IMG/VR virus record: IMGVR_UViG_3300032117_000050
Location: 1-45,185 of that record
DNA from: a virus
Length of the DNA: 45,185 bases
Direction: 5' to 3' (one strand)
The first letter of the stretch is position 1, and every line of letters starts with the position of its first letter. Positions 4,141 through 24,511 of this stretch are shown in pieces. The notes under the pieces are model-generated. The model was not told the origin of the DNA. It ran no database searches and was given only the letters and a program-made list of their open reading frames with translations. The translations under genes were made by a program, and so were the position numbers.

Positions 4141-6486
4141 ATGGAACACTTAATAGACGAAGAAGACGAAGAGTTTGACCCCGAGATTGAGGGCGAACCC
4201 GCTCCTGAAGAACAGGAGGATGAGCTTGACGAGCTTTCTAAAGAGTTTGTAAAGAAGCTCATTGACCGTTGCATCCAATTTATGGATGCCCTTGTAGGCG
4301 TAGACGACGGTGAAGAACACGCTCTTCGCCCCTACCAACTACCTCTTGCCCGACGCATCATTGAGTCTGTAATCATCAATGACGGTGAGGAAATCACAGC
4401 TCTGGCCGCTCGTCAGTCAGGCAAATCAGAAACTATTGCTAATACAGTAGCTACTCTAATGGTACTTCTACCTCGCTTAGCAAAGATGTACCCAGACCTG
4501 CTAGGCAAGTATAAACATGGCCTTTGGGTAGGTATGTTTGCTCCAGTTGAGACTCAGGCTGAAACTCTATTTGGGCGCACGGTTAACCGCCTAACTTCTG
4601 AGCGCGCCTTGGAGATTCTGGGTGACCCAGAGATTGACGATAGCTTGGGTAAGGTTCCTGGGGTAAAGCGTCAAATCAAATTGAAGAACTCTGGCTCTCG
4701 TATTGTAATGATGACTGCGAACCCACGAGCTAAAATTGAATCAGAATCGTTCCATCTGGTAGTTATTGATGAGTGCCAAGAAGCTGATGATTTTATCGTT
4801 TCTAAATCTATTTCCCCTATGTTGGCTGCATATAACGGAACTATGATTAAAACAGGTACTCCAACCACCCATAAGAACAACTTCTACAAGTCCATACAGT
4901 TTAATAAGCGTAGGCAGACCGCGCGTAACCGCCAGAACCACTTTCAATGGGATTACAAAGATGTAGCCAAGGTTAGCCCTAACTATGGCAAGTACATCAA
5001 GAAAGAGATGCTTCGCATTGGCGAGGACTCTGATGAATTCCAGATGAGTTACAACTGCCTTACTCCAGACACCAAGGTACTTACTGGAGACTTGCGCTAT
5101 GTAGAAATAGGCTCAGTACAGGTAGGGGATATTTTAGTAGGCTTTGACGAGGAAACTCAAACAAAGGGCGCACATCGTAAGATACGTGAAACTACTGTAA
5201 TTAAAGCGGAACGCATCTTTCGTCCTACCTATGAGATTGCGTTATCTGATGGCACTGTGGTTAAGGCTTCTGACGGTCATTTATGGCTAGTATCAACCGC
5301 AGGTCGTCGCACCGTATGGAAGCGCACGGACGAGCTAACTTCCACCGACCGTATATTTAAAATCTTTGATACGTGGAAGCACATTGAGGACTATCGCACA
5401 GGTTACCTATCCGCAGCCTTTGACGGAGAAGGTCACTTCTCTCGGCAAGCAATGCTTGGGTTCTCTCAACGTGAAAACGTGATGCTTGGTAAAGTGCGAA
5501 AGTTCCTAGACGAATTAGGCTTTAAGTACTGGGAACGCCATGAGACTGGGACCAACAATGATGTGACGGTCCTTCATATTGCTGGTGGTCGAGCAGGGAT
5601 GTCTCGTTTCTTAGGGCAAATTCGTCCTGAGCGTTTACTTCAAAAAGTGGACCTTAATTCATTTGGCTCTATTGGTCGCCATGATTTTGTGGGGCAGGAC
5701 TTTGAGCACCCGCTAGTGCTATCGGTGACTTCTGTTGGAGAACAAGAAGTCGTTGCGCTTGAGACTACAACTCAAACTTTTATTGCAGAAGGCCTCGCGT
5801 CGCATAACTGTAAATGGCTTCTTGAACGAGGCATGTTCGTCACCTCATCCGTCATGGATAAGCTTGGTGACACCTCTATGGAGATTCAGCGCGCTTGGCA
5901 TAGAACCCCAGTAGTTGTGGGGATTGACCCAGCTCGTAAGATTGACTCTACTGTTGTTACCGTAGTGTGGGTCAACTGGGATACTCCAGATGAATTTGGG
6001 TACTACGACCACCGCGTACTTAACTGGCTTGAGCTACAGGGTGACGACTGGGAAGACCAGTACTTCCAGATTGTTAAATTCTTAGAGGCCTACGACGTTA
6101 TGTACGTGGGTGTAGACGCCAACGGTGTGGGTGATGCTGTTGCCCAACGCTTAAAGCTTTTGTTACCCCGAGCTGAGGTATTTGCTGTGGGCAGTAGCCA
6201 ACCAGAGCAGTCAAAGCGTTGGAAGCACCTAAAAGCTCTCATTGACAGAGAGTTGATTGGGTGGCCTGCACACGCTAAAACTCGCAGATTGCGCACATGG
6301 AAGCGCTTTTACCAGCAGATGACTGACCTAGAAACTAAGTTTACTGGGCCTAACTTCTTGGCAAAAGCCCCTGATGAGGCGCATGCCCATGACGACTACG
6401 CGGATAGCCTAGCTATCGCCTGCGCTTTAACTTTAGATATGACACTGCCTCAAGTAGAGGTCTCTAGTTCACCATTCTTTAGATAG
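4141..6486 (+). CDS. terL: Terminase large subunit, interrupted by an intein
   Basis: The 781-aa precursor gives a ~530-aa terminase after splicing. The N-terminal ATPase has a Walker A-like RQSGKS (91-96) and Walker B LVVIDE (206-211). The C-terminal RNase H-like nuclease has GIDPAR (D596), YVGVDANG (D659) and HDDYADS (D752/D755). Together these translocate and cut concatemeric DNA into proheads. A Cys-to-Asn intein (C306-N556) splits the protein in the segment SYN/CKWLLERGMF, so activity requires splicing. The first 35 residues are strongly acidic. A leaderless promoter may lie just upstream. No small terminase subunit is recognisable nearby; one of the small upstream genes might fill that role. 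Confidence 0.95.
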   Translation: MEHLIDEEDEEFDPEIEGEPAPEEQEDELDELSKEFVKKLIDRCIQFMDALVGVDDGEEHALRPYQLPLARRIIESVIINDGEEITALAARQSGKSETIANTVATLMVLLPRLAKMYPDLLGKYKHGLWVGMFAPVETQAETLFGRTVNRLTSERALEILGDPEIDDSLGKVPGVKRQIKLKNSGSRIVMMTANPRAKIESESFHLVVIDECQEADDFIVSKSISPMLAAYNGTMIKTGTPTTHKNNFYKSIQFNKRRQTARNRQNHFQWDYKDVAKVSPNYGKYIKKEMLRIGEDSDEFQMSYNCLTPDTKVLTGDLRYVEIGSVQVGDILVGFDEETQTKGAHRKIRETTVIKAERIFRPTYEIALSDGTVVKASDGHLWLVSTAGRRTVWKRTDELTSTDRIFKIFDTWKHIEDYRTGYLSAAFDGEGHFSRQAMLGFSQRENVMLGKVRKFLDELGFKYWERHETGTNNDVTVLHIAGGRAGMSRFLGQIRPERLLQKVDLNSFGSIGRHDFVGQDFEHPLVLSVTSVGEQEVVALETTTQTFIAEGLASHNCKWLLERGMFVTSSVMDKLGDTSMEIQRAWHRTPVVVGIDPARKIDSTVVTVVWVNWDTPDEFGYYDHRVLNWLELQGDDWEDQYFQIVKFLEAYDVMYVGVDANGVGDAVAQRLKLLLPRAEVFAVGSSQPEQSKRWKHLKALIDRELIGWPAHAKTRRLRTWKRFYQQMTDLETKFTGPNFLAKAPDEAHAHDDYADSLAIACALTLDMTLPQVEVSSSPFFR
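5056..5808 (+). mobile_element. Intein with LAGLIDADG-type endonuclease remnant, in terminase
   Basis: The in-frame insert starts with Cys306 (CLTPDTKVLTGDLRYVEIG, splicing block A) and ends with ASHN followed by the extein Cys557, the canonical His-Asn/Cys C-terminal junction. Block B is VKASDGHLWLV. A single LAGLIDADG-like motif, YLSAAFDGEG (422-431), is visible, so the homing endonuclease is a single-motif type or a reduced one. Its 251 aa are short for a two-motif homing intein. Flanking extein residues join smoothly as SYN-CKWLLERG. Homing activity is uncertain; splicing competence looks intact. Confidence 0.92.
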
Positions 6487-7400: not shown

Positions 7401-10118
7401 GTGAGCGGTATGGATTTCTCCCCACCGAGTTACCGCGCAGCATCCTCTGATTTAACCATCTCCATTTCTCCACTAGGACTAGTGGAATTGGCAGATGAAG
7501 AGTTTGAAGTACACGGTCCCCGCCTTAACCGTTATTCCCTTAACTGGGCTATGTACCTAGGCCACCACTACTCTTATCGCCGTCAAACAGGCGAAACCCA
7601 AATGATGCTCAACTATTACAGAGCATTCTCAGACTTTCTAATTAACTTTACATTCGGTAAGGGCGTTAACTTCCGTAGCCCTAAAGAGACCGAAGCTATT
7701 GTCCCAGACCTGCTTGAGCGCGTATGGGAAGTAGATAACAATAAGGCTACTGTTCTATGGGAAATCGGACAACAAGGAACTGTCTCAGGTGACTGCTTTA
7801 TTAAAGTCGCTTACGAAGAGGCCTACGTAGACCCAGCTGGGCGTCAACACCCTGGACGAGTCCGCATCCTCCCTCTTAACTCTTCTTTCTGTTTCCCAGA
7901 GTTCCACCCCCATGACCGCGAACGTCTTGTGCGTTTTAAGCTCAAGTACCGCTTTTGGGGTTGTGTAGACACTGAAACAGAAGCTCTAACACGCTCTGGG
8001 TGGAAGAGATATGATGAATTAGTTGATGGGGATGAAATTCTTACTCTTGACCCTAATACTGATGAAATCCAGTGGAAATCTGCTCTAATAAATATCTATG
8101 ATTATTCAGGGCATATGGTTCAATGGTCTAATCACATCAATGCTGTCTCTACCCCTAATCATAGGTGGTTAGTCGAAAAACAAGTAGGTAGGAATGACAC
8201 CCTAGCTTATGAGAGACAAATCGCCCGTACAGAGATAGGAATAGATGGAGACCCAAGTATCTCGGACCTCCGAAATGGAAGTCGCATTATAGTAGGTGGT
8301 GGAACTCCACGGGCTTTTTCTACTACTAAAACGATAGAAGATGAAGTTGTAGAGACGTTAGCTTGGTACATATGTGAAGGAAATGACCATACAAACCAAA
8401 ATGGATATCGTTCTGGGAGAATATCTCAAAGTTCTATAGTTTATCCAGAAAAGACAGAGCGTATCCGTACTCTTGCTAAATGGTGGAGGGATACTAAAGG
8501 AGCCAGTTTCTCTGAGGGAGTTATTAAACCTCGCGGGGTTGTTGAATTTTATCTGGGTAAGGGTACTTTTGGAGTATTAGATACTTTGGCACCTAATAAA
8601 GAAATAACTCCAGAACTTATAACCAGTTTGACCGCAGAACAAGCATCTCTCTTTTATGAAACGCTATTAGATGCAGACGGTTGCAGAACCCATGGAGATA
8701 AGAAAACTACCCGATGGACTCAATTAGATGCTGGTCGTAAGGATTCTTTCCAAATGCTGGCAGCTATGCTAGGTATTCGTTCTAATATCACATCAGATAA
8801 TGAAAAAGTACAGGTTTATAGTAAGAGACACATCCTCTCTGACTATACGTCAGCTAGTGCCCAAAGGGTATATTTAGAGGATGGAAAGATTTGGTGTCCT
8901 ACAGTAGATGGTGGTATTTGGTTTGCCCGTAGAGAGGGGTCTACATATTGGACGGGTAATACATCACTAGAAGGCACACGTCAGGTGTTTACCTATACAG
9001 AAATCCTGACAGACGACGTAATTGAGGAATACATCAATGATGAGCTTATTGACTCCCGCCCTAATCCGCTCGGCACTATTCCTGTTATTCATATTCCGAA
9101 TGTTCGTATTAGTGGTAGCCCTTGGGGTCTCAGCGACTGCAACGACATTATTAACATTAATCGCGCTTATAATGAAACTGCCACTGATATTGCTGACATT
9201 GTTAACTACCACGCAGCACCAGTTACGGTCATCATTGGCGCAAAGGCCTCACAATTAGAAAAGGGCGCCAACAAAGTATGGGGCGGACTTCCAAAAGACG
9301 CTCGCGTTGAGAACCTTGAAGGCGGAGCACAAGGACTAAAGGGAGCCATGGAGTTCATGGCTATGATGAAGAAGTCCATGCACGAGATGATTGGTGTTCC
9401 AGAGACTGCTCTTGGACAAGCACAACCTATCTCTAACACCTCAGGCGTTGCACTTTCTATTCAATTCCAGCCTTTGATGAACCGTTACCACCAGAAGATT
9501 ATTCAGTACTCGCACGGACTAGAGCGTGTTAATGAGCTTATCCTCCTAAATCTTGCTCTAAAAGAACCTGAGACCTTTATTTGGGACCCTAACTCAAGCA
9601 CTACTCCGTTAAAGCAAGGTCAACTTGCACAGTTAGACGTTAACGACCCCCTTACTTTCCGTTCATATGTTCACTTCCCACAGCCACTCCCACTAGACAA
9701 GCTGATTGCTCTTAACGAAATTCAATCTAAGTTGTCCCTTGGTCTTGAGTCTAAAGAGGGAGCGCTTCGCTCTCTTGGTGAAGAGTTCCCAGCAGAGAAG
9801 CTCACTGAAATTCGTCAAGAACTTCAAGATGACGCCCTTGCTGATGGCGCACTTAAACTTATTCAAACACAGATTGAGCAGGACATCCTGGCTCTTACAG
9901 GCGCACAGCCTGGTGCCGCTGGTGCTCCATCTACCCCAATGGGTGGTCCTGGAGCTCCTGGTGGAGATGTACCAATGACTCCTACTGAACCTGTCGTACT
10001 AGACGAGGCCACTATCGCCGCACAAATGGGTGACCAAGGCGTACGCGCCCGCCTCGTAACTGATGCTTACGGAACCAAACTCCCACAGAGAAGGGTCCCG
10101 CAAGACTACGAAAAATAA
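7401..10118 (+). CDS. Portal protein, interrupted by an intein
   Basis: The 905-aa precursor yields a ~572-aa portal after removal of a 333-aa intein. The portal forms the dodecameric DNA channel at one head vertex and docks the terminase and tail. Typical portal features follow the intein: GSPWGLSDCNDIININRAYNE, then the segment containing GVPETALGQ and SNTSGVALSIQFQPLM, and a Pro/Gly-rich tail. Start is GTG 7401 behind AGAGGTGA; ATG 7410 is an alternative. The neighbours (terminase upstream, scaffold and capsid downstream) agree with the call. Confidence 0.92.
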   Translation: MSGMDFSPPSYRAASSDLTISISPLGLVELADEEFEVHGPRLNRYSLNWAMYLGHHYSYRRQTGETQMMLNYYRAFSDFLINFTFGKGVNFRSPKETEAIVPDLLERVWEVDNNKATVLWEIGQQGTVSGDCFIKVAYEEAYVDPAGRQHPGRVRILPLNSSFCFPEFHPHDRERLVRFKLKYRFWGCVDTETEALTRSGWKRYDELVDGDEILTLDPNTDEIQWKSALINIYDYSGHMVQWSNHINAVSTPNHRWLVEKQVGRNDTLAYERQIARTEIGIDGDPSISDLRNGSRIIVGGGTPRAFSTTKTIEDEVVETLAWYICEGNDHTNQNGYRSGRISQSSIVYPEKTERIRTLAKWWRDTKGASFSEGVIKPRGVVEFYLGKGTFGVLDTLAPNKEITPELITSLTAEQASLFYETLLDADGCRTHGDKKTTRWTQLDAGRKDSFQMLAAMLGIRSNITSDNEKVQVYSKRHILSDYTSASAQRVYLEDGKIWCPTVDGGIWFARREGSTYWTGNTSLEGTRQVFTYTEILTDDVIEEYINDELIDSRPNPLGTIPVIHIPNVRISGSPWGLSDCNDIININRAYNETATDIADIVNYHAAPVTVIIGAKASQLEKGANKVWGGLPKDARVENLEGGAQGLKGAMEFMAMMKKSMHEMIGVPETALGQAQPISNTSGVALSIQFQPLMNRYHQKIIQYSHGLERVNELILLNLALKEPETFIWDPNSSTTPLKQGQLAQLDVNDPLTFRSYVHFPQPLPLDKLIALNEIQSKLSLGLESKEGALRSLGEEFPAEKLTEIRQELQDDALADGALKLIQTQIEQDILALTGAQPGAAGAPSTPMGGPGAPGGDVPMTPTEPVVLDEATIAAQMGDQGVRARLVTDAYGTKLPQRRVPQDYEK
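7962..8960 (+). mobile_element. Full-size intein with two LAGLIDADG motifs, in portal
   Basis: The insert runs from Cys188 (CVDTETEALTRSGWKRYDEL) to Asn520, with Thr521 as the downstream nucleophile. The C-terminal junction is WTGN/T: the penultimate residue is Gly rather than the usual His, as seen in a subgroup of phage inteins ending ...ARRxG..YxTGN. Block B is STPNHRWLV. Two LAGLIDADG-type motifs, LAWYICEGN (320-328) and LFYETLLDADG (417-427), imply a complete monomeric homing endonuclease. The DNA is visibly more AT-rich and uses more AGA/AGG codons than the surrounding extein, consistent with later acquisition. Confidence 0.9.
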
Positions 10119-15059: not shown

Positions 15060-15410
15060 ATGGCAACTTATAGCAAAGTAGCGTTATCAGCCGCAACCAC
15101 AGGCGTTCCAATCGCCGTTGTCGCTACCGCCTCAACTGGTACGACTATCCACGCAACAGGCACATCAGCCATTGACGAAGTGTGGCTCTATGCCACCAAT
15201 ACCGATTCAGCGGCTCGCACACTTACTATTCAATTTGGTGGAACTGCAACACTCAACCAGATTCAACAGGTAATCCCTGCTAACTCAGGTCTAACTCTTG
15301 TAATTCCTGGGCTAATCCTTGCCCCATCAGGCTCGGCATTAACTGTTTATGCTTACGCCTCAGTAGCAAGCGTTGTAAACATCTCAGGCTATGTAAACCG
15401 AGTCGCATAA
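15060..15410 (+). CDS. Small beta-rich virion protein
   Basis: The 116-aa product alternates short hydrophobic strands and Thr/Ser/Gly loops (TIHATGTSAIDEVWLYATNT, LTIQFGGTATLNQI), as in small virion or fibre beta-sandwich proteins. An AAGGAGAA site precedes the ATG. Its stop overlaps the start of the next gene (TAATG). It resembles the 94-aa product at 23849 in style. Function is unknown; placement suggests a fibre-associated subunit. Confidence 0.6.
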   Translation: MATYSKVALSAATTGVPIAVVATASTGTTIHATGTSAIDEVWLYATNTDSAARTLTIQFGGTATLNQIQQVIPANSGLTLVIPGLILAPSGSALTVYAYASVASVVNISGYVNRVA

Positions 15411-16369
15411 TGGCAGAGAGATTTAAGCGCGGAGAAGTTGGCTCACAGGTCAATTCGTGGATGCCATCTACTAACACAGTTACACCAAGCGGATTCACTT
15501 CCTCAATTGCGCCTTATGGACTTCAGCTTCAACAAACAGTATTGACAAGCGGAACTTTAGGTGGAACTGCAACAGGTTCATCACTTCTAAACCCATCTGC
15601 AACTGTTCCAATCCCTGCTGGTATCACATTTGTCTATGTAATCGCAGTTGGTGGCGGTGGTGGCGGAGGCGGTTCGGGTTTTGGTGGCGGAGGTGGCGGA
15701 GGTGGTATTTCTTGGGGTTGGACTTTAGCAACTTCATCTTGTGTAGTCGGTGCTGGAGGAAATAACTCGTCAGGTGGTTACACCCGTTATGGAAACATTA
15801 TTGCTGGCGGTGGCAGCGGTGGTTACAACGTTTACGGCGCACTTGGCGGTGGAGGTTTTGGCGGTGGCAGCGGTGGTAACGGGGCTACTAATTATTGGGG
15901 AATACCAAGTGGCAATGGCGGGGCTTCTGGAAGCACACCCGTAAATGGAAACACAGGTTCTGGCGCAGGTGGTGGCGGCGGTAGCACTACCAATGGCAGC
16001 GTTGCAGGAAATGGTGGTAATGGCATCTCAGGTGGTGGCGGTGGATACAGCAATATTGCTGGGTCAAGCACAAATACTGGGGGCAATGGCGGTAATGGTT
16101 TAACGGGCGGCGGCGGAGGTTTTGCAGGAAGCACATCTGGCACTCGTAATGGCGGTGCTGGCGGCAACGGAATAAACATCCTTACAGGTGCTATTACCAC
16201 TGGTGGCGCACAAAACACTGGCAACGGTGGTGGCGGCGGTGGCGTTGCAGGTAACGGTGGAAGTGCATCTTCAACGATTGGTGGGGCTGGTGGGCTTGGC
16301 GGCGGAGGCGGCGGTGCTGGCACTATTGGTACCGCTGGTGGCAACGGAATCCTCTACCTTTACTACTAG
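15410..16369 (+). CDS. Glycine-rich adhesin-like protein 1
   Basis: Of 319 residues the last ~230 are dominated by Gly runs (GGGGGGGGSGFGGGGGGGGIS and similar), spaced by Ser/Asn/Thr, with a hydrophobic start IPAGITFVYVIAVGGGG. Poly-glycine-rich tips of this sort occur in phage fibre adhesins such as those of T2/T6-like phages, where Gly-rich helices form a packed sandwich. The N-terminal APYGLQLQQTVLTSG is shared with the next gene, so the two are paralogues. It probably forms a receptor-contacting tip. Confidence 0.7.
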   Translation: MAERFKRGEVGSQVNSWMPSTNTVTPSGFTSSIAPYGLQLQQTVLTSGTLGGTATGSSLLNPSATVPIPAGITFVYVIAVGGGGGGGGSGFGGGGGGGGISWGWTLATSSCVVGAGGNNSSGGYTRYGNIIAGGGSGGYNVYGALGGGGFGGGSGGNGATNYWGIPSGNGGASGSTPVNGNTGSGAGGGGGSTTNGSVAGNGGNGISGGGGGYSNIAGSSTNTGGNGGNGLTGGGGGFAGSTSGTRNGGAGGNGINILTGAITTGGAQNTGNGGGGGGVAGNGGSASSTIGGAGGLGGGGGGAGTIGTAGGNGILYLYY

Positions 16370-16377
16370 GAGATAAA

Positions 16378-17208
16378 ATGACAACAACTATCTATAACAA
16401 CTCATCATTTAGCGATTCTCCTTATGGGCTAAAACTTCAACAAACCTTTACTACAAGCGGTTCCGTAACAATCCCGTCAAACATCTTGCGTGTTTACGCA
16501 GTTGTTATTGGTGGAGGCGGAGCTGGTTCTACTCAAACTACTGGTGGTGGCGGTGGCGGTGGAGCAGGTGGGTATTCTGCTGGTTGGACTTTTATTTCTA
16601 ACACAGTCACAGTCGGTGCAGGCGGTACTGGAACATCAACTGCTGCTGCGGGTGCTAACGGCAATTCTTCACTTTATGGAATGGTTTTTGCAGGTGGTGG
16701 TTCAGGTGGATTGAGCTCAACAGTTGGTGGCGCTGGCGCAGGAGCAACAACTTCTACAGGTTCAACTTCAACAGTTTCTTACACAGGCGCTCCAACGGCT
16801 GCTGCTAACACAGTTGGTTATGGTGCAGGTGGCGGCGTAGGTGCTATTGGTGGTGCTGGTATTTCATCAGGTGGCGGTGCGGGTGTTGCAACGGCAACTG
16901 GCACACAAACTGCCTATGCTGGTGGTCGCGGACTTATCGCTGGTGGTGGCGGTGCTGCTGGAACTTCAGGTGTTGGAACAGGTGGAGCAGGCGGCACTGG
17001 CGATTTTTTTGCAGGTGGAACTGGTTCATCAGGAACAGGTACATCTTTTGGTGGCGGTGGTGGCGGTGCTGGGTATACTGGTGCAGGTTCTAACGCTTCA
17101 GGCAACAGCGGTGGTAACGGAGGTTCTGGTGGGGGTGGCGGCGGAGCTGGTTCTACACTTGGAACTGCTGGCAGTGGCGGCAATGGCGTTGTTTATCTTT
17201 ACTACTAA
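16378..17208 (+). CDS. Glycine-rich adhesin-like protein 2 (paralogue)
   Basis: The 276-aa product repeats the layout of the preceding gene: SPYGLKLQQTFTTSGSVTIP, then a strand LRVYAVVIGGGGAG and a long Gly/Ser/Thr/Ala-rich region ending GNGVVYLYY (the neighbour ends GNGILYLYY). Shared N- and C-terminal signatures with a diverged middle indicate duplication and then variation, as expected for receptor-binding parts. It has an AGGAGATAAA ribosome site. Confidence 0.72.
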   Translation: MTTTIYNNSSFSDSPYGLKLQQTFTTSGSVTIPSNILRVYAVVIGGGGAGSTQTTGGGGGGGAGGYSAGWTFISNTVTVGAGGTGTSTAAAGANGNSSLYGMVFAGGGSGGLSSTVGGAGAGATTSTGSTSTVSYTGAPTAAANTVGYGAGGGVGAIGGAGISSGGGAGVATATGTQTAYAGGRGLIAGGGGAAGTSGVGTGGAGGTGDFFAGGTGSSGTGTSFGGGGGGAGYTGAGSNASGNSGGNGGSGGGGGGAGSTLGTAGSGGNGVVYLYY

Positions 17209-20067: not shown

Positions 20068-20844
20068 ATGGAAAATTCCGTAGGAAATACATTTGAGATG
20101 TATGAGCGCGTTCTATCAATAAAGAATGCGCTCAAACTCAAAACCCCACTTGATGTAAAGTTTACCCGCCTCGGTAGTGCACATGATGGCGGGTATATCC
20201 TTGTTGATGACGTAAATGGCGCAGACCACGTAATATCTTTAGGCGTTGAGGGCAACGTTGATTTTGAAAAAGATATTATGGAAAAAGCCTGCCATATCTA
20301 TATGTACGATAATTCTATTGATGGGCTTCCAGAGCCAGTAAAGCGCTCCACATTCTTTAAGAGAACGATGGGAAGCATACAAAACGGCCACGCCTCCTTA
20401 GGCAGTTGTATTCAAGACGGCTGGGTTGGTGATGACGAAGACGACGACTTTGCTGGGTTTGCTGGCGGTGACGACTACATTCTAAAGATGGATGTAGAGG
20501 GCGCCGAATACGATTTACTTGGGGAAGCCTCTCGGGACACCCTTACATATTTTAGACAGATTACGGTGGAGTTCCACGACACTGACCGCATTGAAGATGA
20601 AGACTTCTATAAGAAAATGCTTCATGCGTTAACCCATCTACGCGAAACGCATACCCCCGTATTTGTTCACGCCAATAACAATATACCGTTAACTATAAAA
20701 GGAAACTCGCCCTTTCCTCAAGTGTTTGAGGCAACTTTTCTACGCAATGATAGCTATAAGTTTGCGGAAGAGACTGATTTGTTTGAAGGTTTAGTTACAA
20801 GAAACGATTTGCCTAAGCCAGAGATTGGGCTTACTTTTCCTTAA
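20068..20844 (+). CDS. FkbM-family-like SAM methyltransferase
   Basis: The 258-aa product fits small methyltransferases of the FkbM/Methyltransf_21 type: FTRLGSAHDGGYILVDD, the SAM-binding strand VISLGVEGNVDFEKDI with an acidic turn MYDNS, and the diagnostic DYILKMDVEGAEYDLL. Such enzymes O-methylate sugars. It may modify host or virion surface glycans, inferred from the glycosidase-like gene opposite. It converges with the minus-strand operon, the stops overlapping by 4 bp. The start at 20068 lacks a ribosome site and is chosen as leaderless; ATG 20098 is an alternative. Confidence 0.78.
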   Translation: MENSVGNTFEMYERVLSIKNALKLKTPLDVKFTRLGSAHDGGYILVDDVNGADHVISLGVEGNVDFEKDIMEKACHIYMYDNSIDGLPEPVKRSTFFKRTMGSIQNGHASLGSCIQDGWVGDDEDDDFAGFAGGDDYILKMDVEGAEYDLLGEASRDTLTYFRQITVEFHDTDRIEDEDFYKKMLHALTHLRETHTPVFVHANNNIPLTIKGNSPFPQVFEATFLRNDSYKFAEETDLFEGLVTRNDLPKPEIGLTFP

Positions 20845-21425
20845 TCTGTAAATTCCCAAACCATACCTAGTGAACGCATGTTGGCCTCTACTGCTTGTTT
20901 ATAGATAGGGGCCAATTCTTGTTTGCGCAGTTCAGTGAATAGTCGTGCGCTTTCATCTTTTTGCCCAAACCACCAAGAGCTTACCGCCATCTCAAATTCA
21001 AGACAGTAAGACCCAAAGTACCCAACATCTGCTGGCAGGGGCTGTAGCCCATAATGATTTGCGGCGGCTAGTCCTATCTTTGCCCAGGTATAACACTCCT
21101 GCCAAGACTTCTTATATTCAAGAGATTGGGACAGCAGGAAGTACCCTTCTGGTCTATTTGGCATATAAGCAACCGCTTGAAACAGACAAGTACCCACCGT
21201 GTGGTCTCTATTACCCAGCTCCCCAAAGCATCGGGCTAACTTCAAAAGCGATGTGTACACTGTGAGGGACCCGTCAACATCTGCCCCGTACTCAGCGGCG
21301 CGCATATAAAAAGATACAGCGGAGGCGTATTGCTCTAGCTCTTCATACTCACGGGCTACTGCAAAGTTTATATCTGGATTAAATGGGTCTTCAGATAACT
21401 TTACTATCAGCTCTTCAATTTGCAT
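20841..21425 (-). CDS. TPR-like protein
   Basis: The 194-aa product is all-helical with TPR-like repeats: INFAVAREYEELEQYASAVS, LKLARCFGELGNRD, and PEGYFLLSQSLEYKKSWQEC. The Trp/Tyr-rich pattern is like the repeat domain found C-terminal to phage and bacterial family-2 glycosyltransferases. No catalytic domain is present. It lies downstream of the beta-propeller gene and overlaps it by 11 nt, so the two probably act together in glycan handling. Confidence 0.65.
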   Translation of the reverse strand: MQIEELIVKLSEDPFNPDINFAVAREYEELEQYASAVSFYMRAAEYGADVDGSLTVYTSLLKLARCFGELGNRDHTVGTCLFQAVAYMPNRPEGYFLLSQSLEYKKSWQECYTWAKIGLAAANHYGLQPLPADVGYFGSYCLEFEMAVSSWWFGQKDESARLFTELRKQELAPIYKQAVEANMRSLGMVWEFTD

Positions 21426-22413
21426 TTAAAGCCTCCTGGACAAGCTCATCTACTACAGAGTGAGGGACTTTAAGAATAAAAGCCGCGTTATCTTGGAATC
21501 CAAAGCTAACTAGTAGGTCTTCCCCATAGACGGCCGCCCCAACGCAGAACTCTACATAGGCATCTAGAAAAGTAAATTGATTGGTCAGCCCTAAGAAGTT
21601 AAAGTCTTTATCCCAAACACAAAGCCTATGCCTATACACGGCTCCCTTTTGCTCTAAGTAATTTTTAAATAGGTCTACGTCATGCGTGATAGATACTAAG
21701 TAATCTCCCCAAGCAAATACATGTGAAGACCCTCTTTGGTCTAAAGGAGCAGGCGGTGTTTGCTTTAACGCAACCTGCACAGTAGGGGCTTCAACATCTG
21801 GGAGTACGTGCACCAATTCTGTAGGCATAGTCCACTTTACAAAGGTAAATGGCTGGTCTATAACGGGAACCCAATTCTTTTCACAATAAGAGGAGTCATC
21901 ATTGGGCGCCGCAATACGCTTACGCGCCACCTCTCTAGCTTCCCATTTTCCCTTATTCAAAGAGATGGTGCTGTATTCCATGCGCCCTTGACCGTTTGTT
22001 GTAGTATCGCGGCGAACGCCAATCAAATAGTAAACGCCTTTCCATTGGACTAGGCGGGCGTCCTCTAGGCCAAGAAACTCCCAGATGGGCTCGTGCAAGT
22101 TGAGCACGTCCACCAAGCAATAATCAGTCATTTCTAACTCTGAATTGAGGCGGCAAAGATAGTTCTCGGTTTCTAAGCGCAGGTTATTCTCAGGATGCAA
22201 GTAAGCCAAAGGCCCCCACATAGAAGGGAAACGTTGCTTGTGTTCTGCGTGGTAGAGGGCATAGTTTACGTGCCTAAGATTAACAAGTATCTCCCCGTCT
22301 TCGTCTACAAAAACAGAGGGGTTCATCAGACCCGTACCCGCGGTAAAACGTTTAGGTATCACTATCGGAGCAAGTTTTCCGCCAGCTTGGACGGCGCGCT
22401 GAACTAGATTCAC
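21415..22413 (-). CDS. GH130-like five-bladed beta-propeller protein
   Basis: The 332-aa product shows the GH130/GH43-like propeller features: MNPSVFVDEDGEILVNLRHV, LGLEDARLVQWKGVYYLIGV (the EDARL motif typical of GH130 mannoside phosphorylases and related proteins), EKNWVPV, and repeated W/G/D blade motifs such as GSSHVFAWGDYLVS. GH130 enzymes act on mannosides; related propellers may be non-catalytic. It starts at GTG with a GTGA overlap to the gene upstream. It is likely involved in a surface glycan modification or recognition system. Catalysis is not proven. Confidence 0.7.
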   Translation of the reverse strand: MNLVQRAVQAGGKLAPIVIPKRFTAGTGLMNPSVFVDEDGEILVNLRHVNYALYHAEHKQRFPSMWGPLAYLHPENNLRLETENYLCRLNSELEMTDYCLVDVLNLHEPIWEFLGLEDARLVQWKGVYYLIGVRRDTTTNGQGRMEYSTISLNKGKWEAREVARKRIAAPNDDSSYCEKNWVPVIDQPFTFVKWTMPTELVHVLPDVEAPTVQVALKQTPPAPLDQRGSSHVFAWGDYLVSITHDVDLFKNYLEQKGAVYRHRLCVWDKDFNFLGLTNQFTFLDAYVEFCVGAAVYGEDLLVSFGFQDNAAFILKVPHSVVDELVQEALNAN

Positions 22414-22577
22414 TCTAAATCATCTGCGGCTAGGCCGTGAAAATCACAATGTGATTCGTACAAGGTATCGGCAAGCCATTCGTCCTCAGTAGGCTCAGAG
22501 ACATAGGATGAGCATAGTTCACAATATACAGCCCAGCGGATAGGGTCTAAATCCACAGCAACTACATCAACCGACAT
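22410..22577 (-). CDS. Small Cys/His protein, first gene of minus-strand operon
   Basis: The product is 55 aa from the ATG at 22577, chosen because AGAGG lies 6 nt upstream; an in-frame ATG at 22613 lacks a ribosome site. CELC and HCDFH provide a possible zinc site. It overlaps the beta-propeller gene by 4 nt. A short spacer (22578-22627) separates it from the divergent gene at 22628, so a divergent promoter region must be there. Confidence 0.55.
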   Translation of the reverse strand: MSVDVVAVDLDPIRWAVYCELCSSYVSEPTEDEWLADTLYESHCDFHGLAADDLE

Positions 22578-22627
22578 TGGGACCTCTTTATCCTGATTTA
22601 TGTGCGTAAGCACGAGAGAATATTACC

Positions 22628-24133: not shown

Positions 24134-24207
24134 GCATTCGCGTAGCCCGTAAAGGCGAGCCTATCGGAACAAGTAAGAAATCTACCCCCAAAGTGAAAGG
24201 TAAGTAA
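24130..24207 (+). CDS. Tiny basic peptide (25 aa)
   Basis: An ATGA overlap starts a 25-codon frame, MSIRVARKGEPIGTSKKSTP, then KVKGK. It has no ribosome site of its own but would be translated by coupling. Its Lys/Arg-rich nature resembles its neighbour. It may be real; evidence is limited. Confidence 0.35.
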   Translation: MSIRVARKGEPIGTSKKSTPKVKGK

Positions 24208-24209
24208 CC

Positions 24210-24401
24210 ATGTGCGCTACATGCGGATGCCGCGACAAGGCAAAAGATAAGAAGCAAGATGCCAAGCTTATGAAAGGCATGACCCCAAAGCAGAAGTCAG
24301 CTTTTGAAAAGGCTGACAAGAAGATGGATAAGAAGAAGCCATCTGCTAAGGAAGATGCCAAGATGGACAAGGCGTTGGCAAAGAAGGTCAAAAAGAAGTA
24401 A
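24210..24401 (+). CDS. Small Lys-rich protein with CxxCxC motif
   Basis: The 63-aa product opens MCATCGCRDK, a CxxCxC metal or redox site, followed by a Lys/Asp/Glu-rich helical tail. It is the last gene before a terminator. Such Lys-rich proteins with an N-terminal Cys cluster occur in many phages as unknowns. Confidence 0.6.
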   Translation: MCATCGCRDKAKDKKQDAKLMKGMTPKQKSAFEKADKKMDKKKPSAKEDAKMDKALAKKVKKK

Positions 24402-24407
24402 GCACTT

Positions 24408-24429
24408 AGCGCCCGCAAGGGCGCTTTTT
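24408..24429 (+). terminator. Rho-independent terminator
   Basis: AGCGCCC pairs with GGGCGCT around the loop GCAA, followed by TTTTT. It closes the small-gene group 22628-24401. Confidence 0.92.
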
Positions 24430-24511
24430 GCTTTATTCTTATAGTAGTTCCCGTGCGGGGACTAAGCACTACCTTGCGATTTACTCTTGCTGCTCTCTTA
24501 GGAGATTACCC

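Follow-up and report, generated by a model that had tools for sequence, protein, structure and literature searches.

What does an isolated minus-strand block of glycan-related genes do among the structural genes of a phage? The question is raised by positions 20068-22577 of a 45-kb IMG/VR virus record (the whole stretch of 45,185 nucleotides is referred to here as the window), which belongs to a contractile-tailed phage, as genes for an endolysin, terminase, portal, capsid, sheath, and DnaB helicase were seen. This island, located between a collagen-like fiber gene and tail genes, encodes a propeller protein, a tetratricopeptide repeat (TPR) protein, an FkbM-type methyltransferase, and a small Cys protein. 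We found that the propeller and TPR genes form a near-obligate pair in many viruses, and that the cassette built on this pair tracks a proline-free, Gln-rich collagen-like fiber (repeats of G-X-Q-G-X-Y), a link that is new here. Our proposal, which we hold with about even confidence, is that the island is a phage-encoded glycosylation cassette that decorates the phage's own collagen-like fiber with sugar.

The propeller is related to GH130 enzymes

As a structural ranking of the AlphaFold2 model of the propeller (predicted local distance difference test [pLDDT] score: 83) revealed, the top places were held by GH130 chains (Z 20-24, best 23.8; 264-281 residues aligned), with GH43 below them (Z 18.5). 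When we aligned profiles against 26 bacterial GH130 proteins, the phage sequence GLEDARL fell on the GH130 EDPR motif (E 0.0012). Mapped from this motif and the weak (local, low-threshold) profile alignment, not from superposed coordinates, the propeller residues N31, R47, D118, and D308 match the mannose-site and catalytic residues N74, R89, D142, and D363 of BT3780; the mannose-holding residues have been characterized in GH130 enzymes (PMC4599007, PMC4264767). All four are invariant in ~120 non-identical propeller sequences, and E117, next to the catalytic Asp D118, is conserved as well. Since the GH130 sugar-site residues are kept without exception, we predict that the propeller is very likely an active carbohydrate enzyme. 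The curated cut-off of PF04041 was not reached (18/43 propeller members matched weakly, best E 0.0079; the window protein gave no match), and we therefore treat the propeller, on sequence grounds, as a separate family related to GH130 and not as a GH130 member. Weak matches to Photorhabdus lectin propeller repeats, obtained in a profile search against PDB sequences, were not accepted as homology, and NCBIfam and PHROGs returned nothing useful for the propeller.

One reading of this fold is degradation: during infection, the propeller would act as a mannosidase or phosphorylase and clear away storage glycans or those of the host. Its closest folds are indeed GH130 phosphorylases and hydrolases, and E117 beside the catalytic Asp resembles the GH130_NC group, which holds hydrolases (PMC4599007). 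Nevertheless, the constant TPR partner and the FkbM enzyme described below point to synthesis, and the basic residues invariant in the family (R134, R135, K179, K193, and H244) are provisionally mapped candidates for binding phosphate or a nucleotide sugar. We consider degradation to be very unlikely.

The same propeller fold is also present in three giant-virus proteins in BFVD (A0A3G5AFP7, A0A3G5AG18, and A0A1V0SDN7), with a fucosyltransferase, a pyruvyl-transferase, and a LicD domain as fusion partners; these are possible relatives of the phage family. In a separate record, L461, the propeller is split across two overlapping open reading frames (ORFs; L550/L551), which may reflect decay of this copy or a frameshift in sequencing.

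A propeller-TPR gene pair is conserved in viruses

Relatives of the propeller are numerous in IMG/VR, where six peptide patterns retrieved 284 and two conserved peptide patterns at least 595. Among cultured phages, the Synechococcus phages S-SCSM2R and DSL-LC02 carry it. A bacterial gene was rejected as an explanation, because the sole match in GTDB genomes is on a viral-looking 3.7-kb contig of a metagenome-assembled genome, with phage-type glycosyltransferases among the neighbors, and 395 genomes of the same phylum gave no further match. Thus, by its sequence distribution, the propeller family is virus-specific, and the cassette is a module spread across many aquatic bacterial viruses. We found no description of the propeller, TPR, and FkbM gene set in the literature searched. 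The original prediction, that the island is unlike a standard phage module, is right about its glycan-related content, as the propeller is of the mannoside-enzyme type and is accompanied by a TPR protein and a sugar-type methyltransferase. It is wrong in so far as the module is widespread among viruses and not unique to the window.

We then collected 131 propeller loci, of which 126 had room past the propeller for a partner gene; the contigs compared are fragments, and ORF calling followed a simple longest-ORF rule. A TPR gene was called next after the propeller in 119/126 loci, mostly with the same 11-nt overlap that the two genes share in the window. The remaining seven loci yielded a TPR gene by tblastn (five directly adjacent, two beyond one extra gene), so that all 126 loci contain it and 124 have it directly adjoining the propeller, a pairing that is more than chance. 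In an independent sample drawn by fiber pattern (see below), the TPR gene was found beside 9/11 propellers. Although the window TPR protein alone scored under the Pfam cut-offs, its model (pLDDT 95) is an array of helix-turn-helix TPR repeats. It matched the TPR parts of GmaR (template modeling score 0.79) and OGT (0.74) among many TPR proteins; because this likeness is generic, it is only suggestive as a functional clue.

The methyltransferases fall into two kinds. A 223-aa FkbM of the relatives (66.4 bits against PF05050) directly follows the TPR gene in 73/119 loci, and some relatives have a fusion of FkbM and TPR protein. The window FkbM, which also passes the PF05050 cut-off (24.6 bits; cut-off 22.7), belongs to another subfamily, lies in the opposite orientation, and occurs only in five near-identical contigs. 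The small Cys protein, which may bind zinc judging from its sequence, is conserved only in these near-identical contigs and in one further locus (L013). The conserved unit is thus propeller plus TPR, joined in most relatives by the different FkbM on the same strand, and not the four genes of the window: from the four-gene set originally predicted, the propeller-TPR pair was kept and the full set was not. The labels 'GH130-like propeller' and 'TPR-like' agree with the fold and active-site residues of the former and the confident model of the latter. What had been named as speaking against the prediction was a propeller with no sugar pocket and genes with no co-occurrence; we found conserved sugar-site residues and co-occurring genes. 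As a separate observation, the TPR protein of DSL-LC02 (L003, 6959-9112) is fused to FkbM and to a radical SAM/SPASM domain, which suggests an extra modification step.

The cassette tracks proline-free collagen-like fibers

The two collagen-like proteins of the window contain no proline at all in their 85 and 78 Gly-X-Y triplets. In a first comparison, the median proline content of X and Y positions was 0.3% at cassette loci and 22.5% at loci without the cassette, where long Gly-X-Y ORFs are of the proline-rich type; cassette fibers have almost no proline or lysine. This comparison was confounded by lineage, as the loci without the cassette came mostly from one portal lineage, and for that reason new samples were drawn. 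Using a DNA pattern for repeated G-X-Q-G-X-Y that is blind to the cassette, we obtained 78 usable virus records, each searched whole, and called a fiber proline-poor below 3.5% proline, a cut-off set after the first comparison and applied to this independent sample. The propeller was present in 10/25 proline-poor records and 1/53 others (p 2.3e-5), or in 8/18 and 1/35, respectively, when only records of at least 20 kb were counted (p 3.6e-4); these statistics ignore relatedness among records. Other proline cut-offs gave an agreeing result.

Two further comparisons pointed the same way. Within one portal lineage, a Gly-X-Y fiber was found in 4/4 cassette loci (partly related to each other) and 0/24 others. 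Both complete cyanophages with the cassette, S-SCSM2R and DSL-LC02, have proline-free, long G-X-Q runs, while ten reference cyanophages had neither cassette nor G-X-Q fiber (0/10 vs. 2/2; Fisher p 0.015). Glycosyltransferase matches were also tried as a cyanophage control and came mostly from one species. GTQ, the commonest triplet in cassette fibers, is less frequent in proline-poor fibers without the cassette. A link of the cassette to any Gly-X-Y ORF proved too broad, as such ORFs occurred in 23/24 cassette-free loci of one portal lineage, and glycan islands as general companions of collagen fibers were not seen in that lineage.

Could cassette and proline-free fiber simply move together as neighbors, or serve one niche, with no enzyme-substrate relation? 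They are often adjacent, and proline-poor fibers also exist without the cassette. On the other hand, the link persists in S-SCSM2R, where ~8 kb separate the fiber repeat and the cassette genes, and what the cassette goes with is fiber composition (proline, GTQ) and not Gly-X-Y fibers at large. We regard co-transfer alone as unlikely.

The cassette occupies a variable modification locus

Neighbors of the cassette are mostly fiber, portal, and head genes, together with some glycosyltransferases (GT25, GT1, PF11397) and WhiB regulators, and the direction of the cassette relative to the tail genes varies, both orientations being found. Lineage-mates that lack the cassette have, at this position, genes for 2-oxoglutarate (2OG)-Fe(II) oxygenases, GT2, PF11397, FkbM, and kelch proteins, and these swapped-in modification genes indicate that the site is a variable modification locus. 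In three cassette-free loci (L222, L223, and L235), long runs of 160-260-aa ORFs fill this place upstream of the g23170 homologue; when such ORFs were scanned together, 12/74 matched 2OG-Fe(II) oxygenases.

Such a setting also bears on a role at the host surface, the original prediction, in which a host glycan would be built, capped, or methylated so as to prevent superinfection or hide receptors. A sugar enzyme, FkbM, and glycosyltransferase neighbors would fit polysaccharide work, and the cassette resembles a moron in its opposite orientation and variable position. Set against this, the virus-specific family was not recently acquired from host polysaccharide loci, the conserved unit has no membrane or transport gene and is carried by T4-like cyanophages, which gain little from lasting conversion of a host, and the cassette follows a fiber type. 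The glycan role of the prediction thus stands, and the context favors the phage's own fiber over the host surface as its object; modification of the host surface appears improbable to us, and receptor masking less likely than fiber glycosylation.

Proposed function

In fiber glycosylation, the GH130-like propeller would use a sugar phosphate or nucleotide sugar as donor and transfer a hexose, for which mannose is the likeliest candidate; the acceptor would be held by its partner, the TPR protein from the overlapping gene; and the FkbM enzyme would O-methylate the transferred sugar. The acceptor would be the phage's own collagen-like fiber with its nearly proline-free Gly-X-Y repeats, and as these are rich in Gly-Thr-Gln, Thr is the first candidate attachment site. 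Proline and hydroxyproline are the usual stabilizers of collagen helices, and a sugar on Thr could take over this role. Collagens of E. coli prophages have proline in X (PMC3368898), and there is a precedent in vent-worm cuticle collagen, which is cited as using glycosylated Thr for stability (in PMC10141479 and PMC11766948). In its most specific form, that the virus-specific GH130-like/TPR/FkbM set glycosylates Thr in proline-free Gly-X-Gln fibers and so stabilizes the triple helix without proline, the proposal is tentative and may well not hold.

In favor of fiber glycosylation, the place of the cassette is taken in lineage-mates by other protein-modification genes (2OG-Fe(II) oxygenases, PF11397, GT2), and the fold relatives from giant viruses are fused to glycan-building enzymes. 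Several points weigh against it. The window's own lineage shows no fiber link (2/6 vs. 2/14 loci). Since 15/25 proline-poor records (10/18 of those of at least 20 kb) have no propeller, such fibers can do without it. Thr in these fibers is mostly at X, not Y; a GH130 fold match of a model is no proof of sugar transfer; and the association, whose counts are not corrected for kinship, could arise from physical linkage alone.

Layout of the island and other features of the window

ORF positions and strands of the island (Table 1) were as originally predicted, with FkbM converging on the minus-strand genes (4-nt overlap with the TPR gene). The island also remains the sole credible minus-strand block, as the only other minus-strand ORF of at least 90 aa (24182-24469) overlaps a plus-strand ORF, has no support, and is not credible. 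Promoters and terminators were no more frequent than in shuffled sequence, and the base composition of the island is not distinct. The sheath is closest to those of Streptomyces phages, a hint of an actinobacterial host.

Table 1. Positions of the island genes and of the proposed acceptors in the window
Feature	Position	Strand	Remarks
GH130-like five-bladed propeller, 332 aa	21415..22413	-	GTG start; predicted sugar-transfer enzyme, from fold, active-site residues, and relatives
TPR protein, 194 aa	20841..21425	-	partner of the propeller, from pairing and fold
FkbM-type methyltransferase, 258 aa	20068..20844	+	convergent; PF05050 score
Small Cys/His protein	22410..22577	-	CxxC and HCxxH; ATG at 22577, alternative GTG at 22613; upstream of the propeller gene
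Collagen-like fiber, 728 aa	17480..19666	+	85 uninterrupted Gly-X-Y triplets (aa 111-365); proposed acceptor
Second collagen-like protein, 382 aa	13902..15050	+	78 Gly-X-Y triplets; proposed acceptor

Beside the fiber gene, two plus-strand ORFs (15410-16369 and 16378-17208) represent families of repeated paralogues, with multiple copies in relatives such as L016 and L029; the first family matched no known function. Intein-like inserts were seen in two neighboring packaging genes of this one phage. In the portal gene (7401-10118, plus strand; 905 aa) the insert is in frame, starting with CVDTETEALTRSGWKRYDEL after RFWG and ending with STYWTGN before TSLEG. That of the terminase gene (4141-6486, plus strand; 781 aa) runs from CLTPDTKVLTGDLRYVEI to AEGLASHN, followed by Cys, and residues 322-391 weakly match a solved DnaB-intein structure.

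Comparison with known systems and implications

The phage propeller shares the five-bladed fold (Z 17-24) and the mannose-site Asn, Arg, Asp, and Asp with GH130 mannoside phosphorylases and mannosidases and with GT108, the Leishmania mannosyltransferase-phosphorylases. Unlike these, it is known from genes and a model, has ~10-15% identity to them, scores below the PF04041 cut-off, and is virus-only, with an obligate TPR partner and a fiber context. As in OGT and Listeria GmaR, a TPR part is paired with a sugar-transfer enzyme (predicted for the phage propeller); the catalytic domains of OGT and GmaR are glycosyltransferase folds (GT-A/GT-B), whereas in the phage this part belongs to a GH130-like propeller, encoded as its own chain. 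Sugars on collagen repeats at the particle surface, as proposed here, are found in the glycosylated BclA of the Bacillus exosporium, which carries methylated sugars, and giant viruses have collagen-modifying enzymes such as Mimivirus L230. The enzymes are unrelated to the phage set, and BclA and giant-virus collagens contain proline or hydroxylysine sites, in contrast to phage fibers almost devoid of proline or lysine. Phage-encoded virion glycosylation is known from mycobacteriophages, where, as proposed here, phage enzymes glycosylate their own particle, there with ordinary glycosyltransferases. We know of no GH130-like/TPR pair or collagen-type acceptor in phage virion glycosylation.

With these results, unnamed genes in hundreds of uncultured phages gain a testable function, a virus-specific carbohydrate-enzyme family is tied to a defined fiber type, and how collagen-like phage fibers hold together without proline becomes directly testable. 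If the proposal is true, the cassette would also serve as a small set of enzymes with which to glycosylate collagen-like repeats, and many aquatic phages would share a further way of making collagen stable, next to proline content and hydroxylation.
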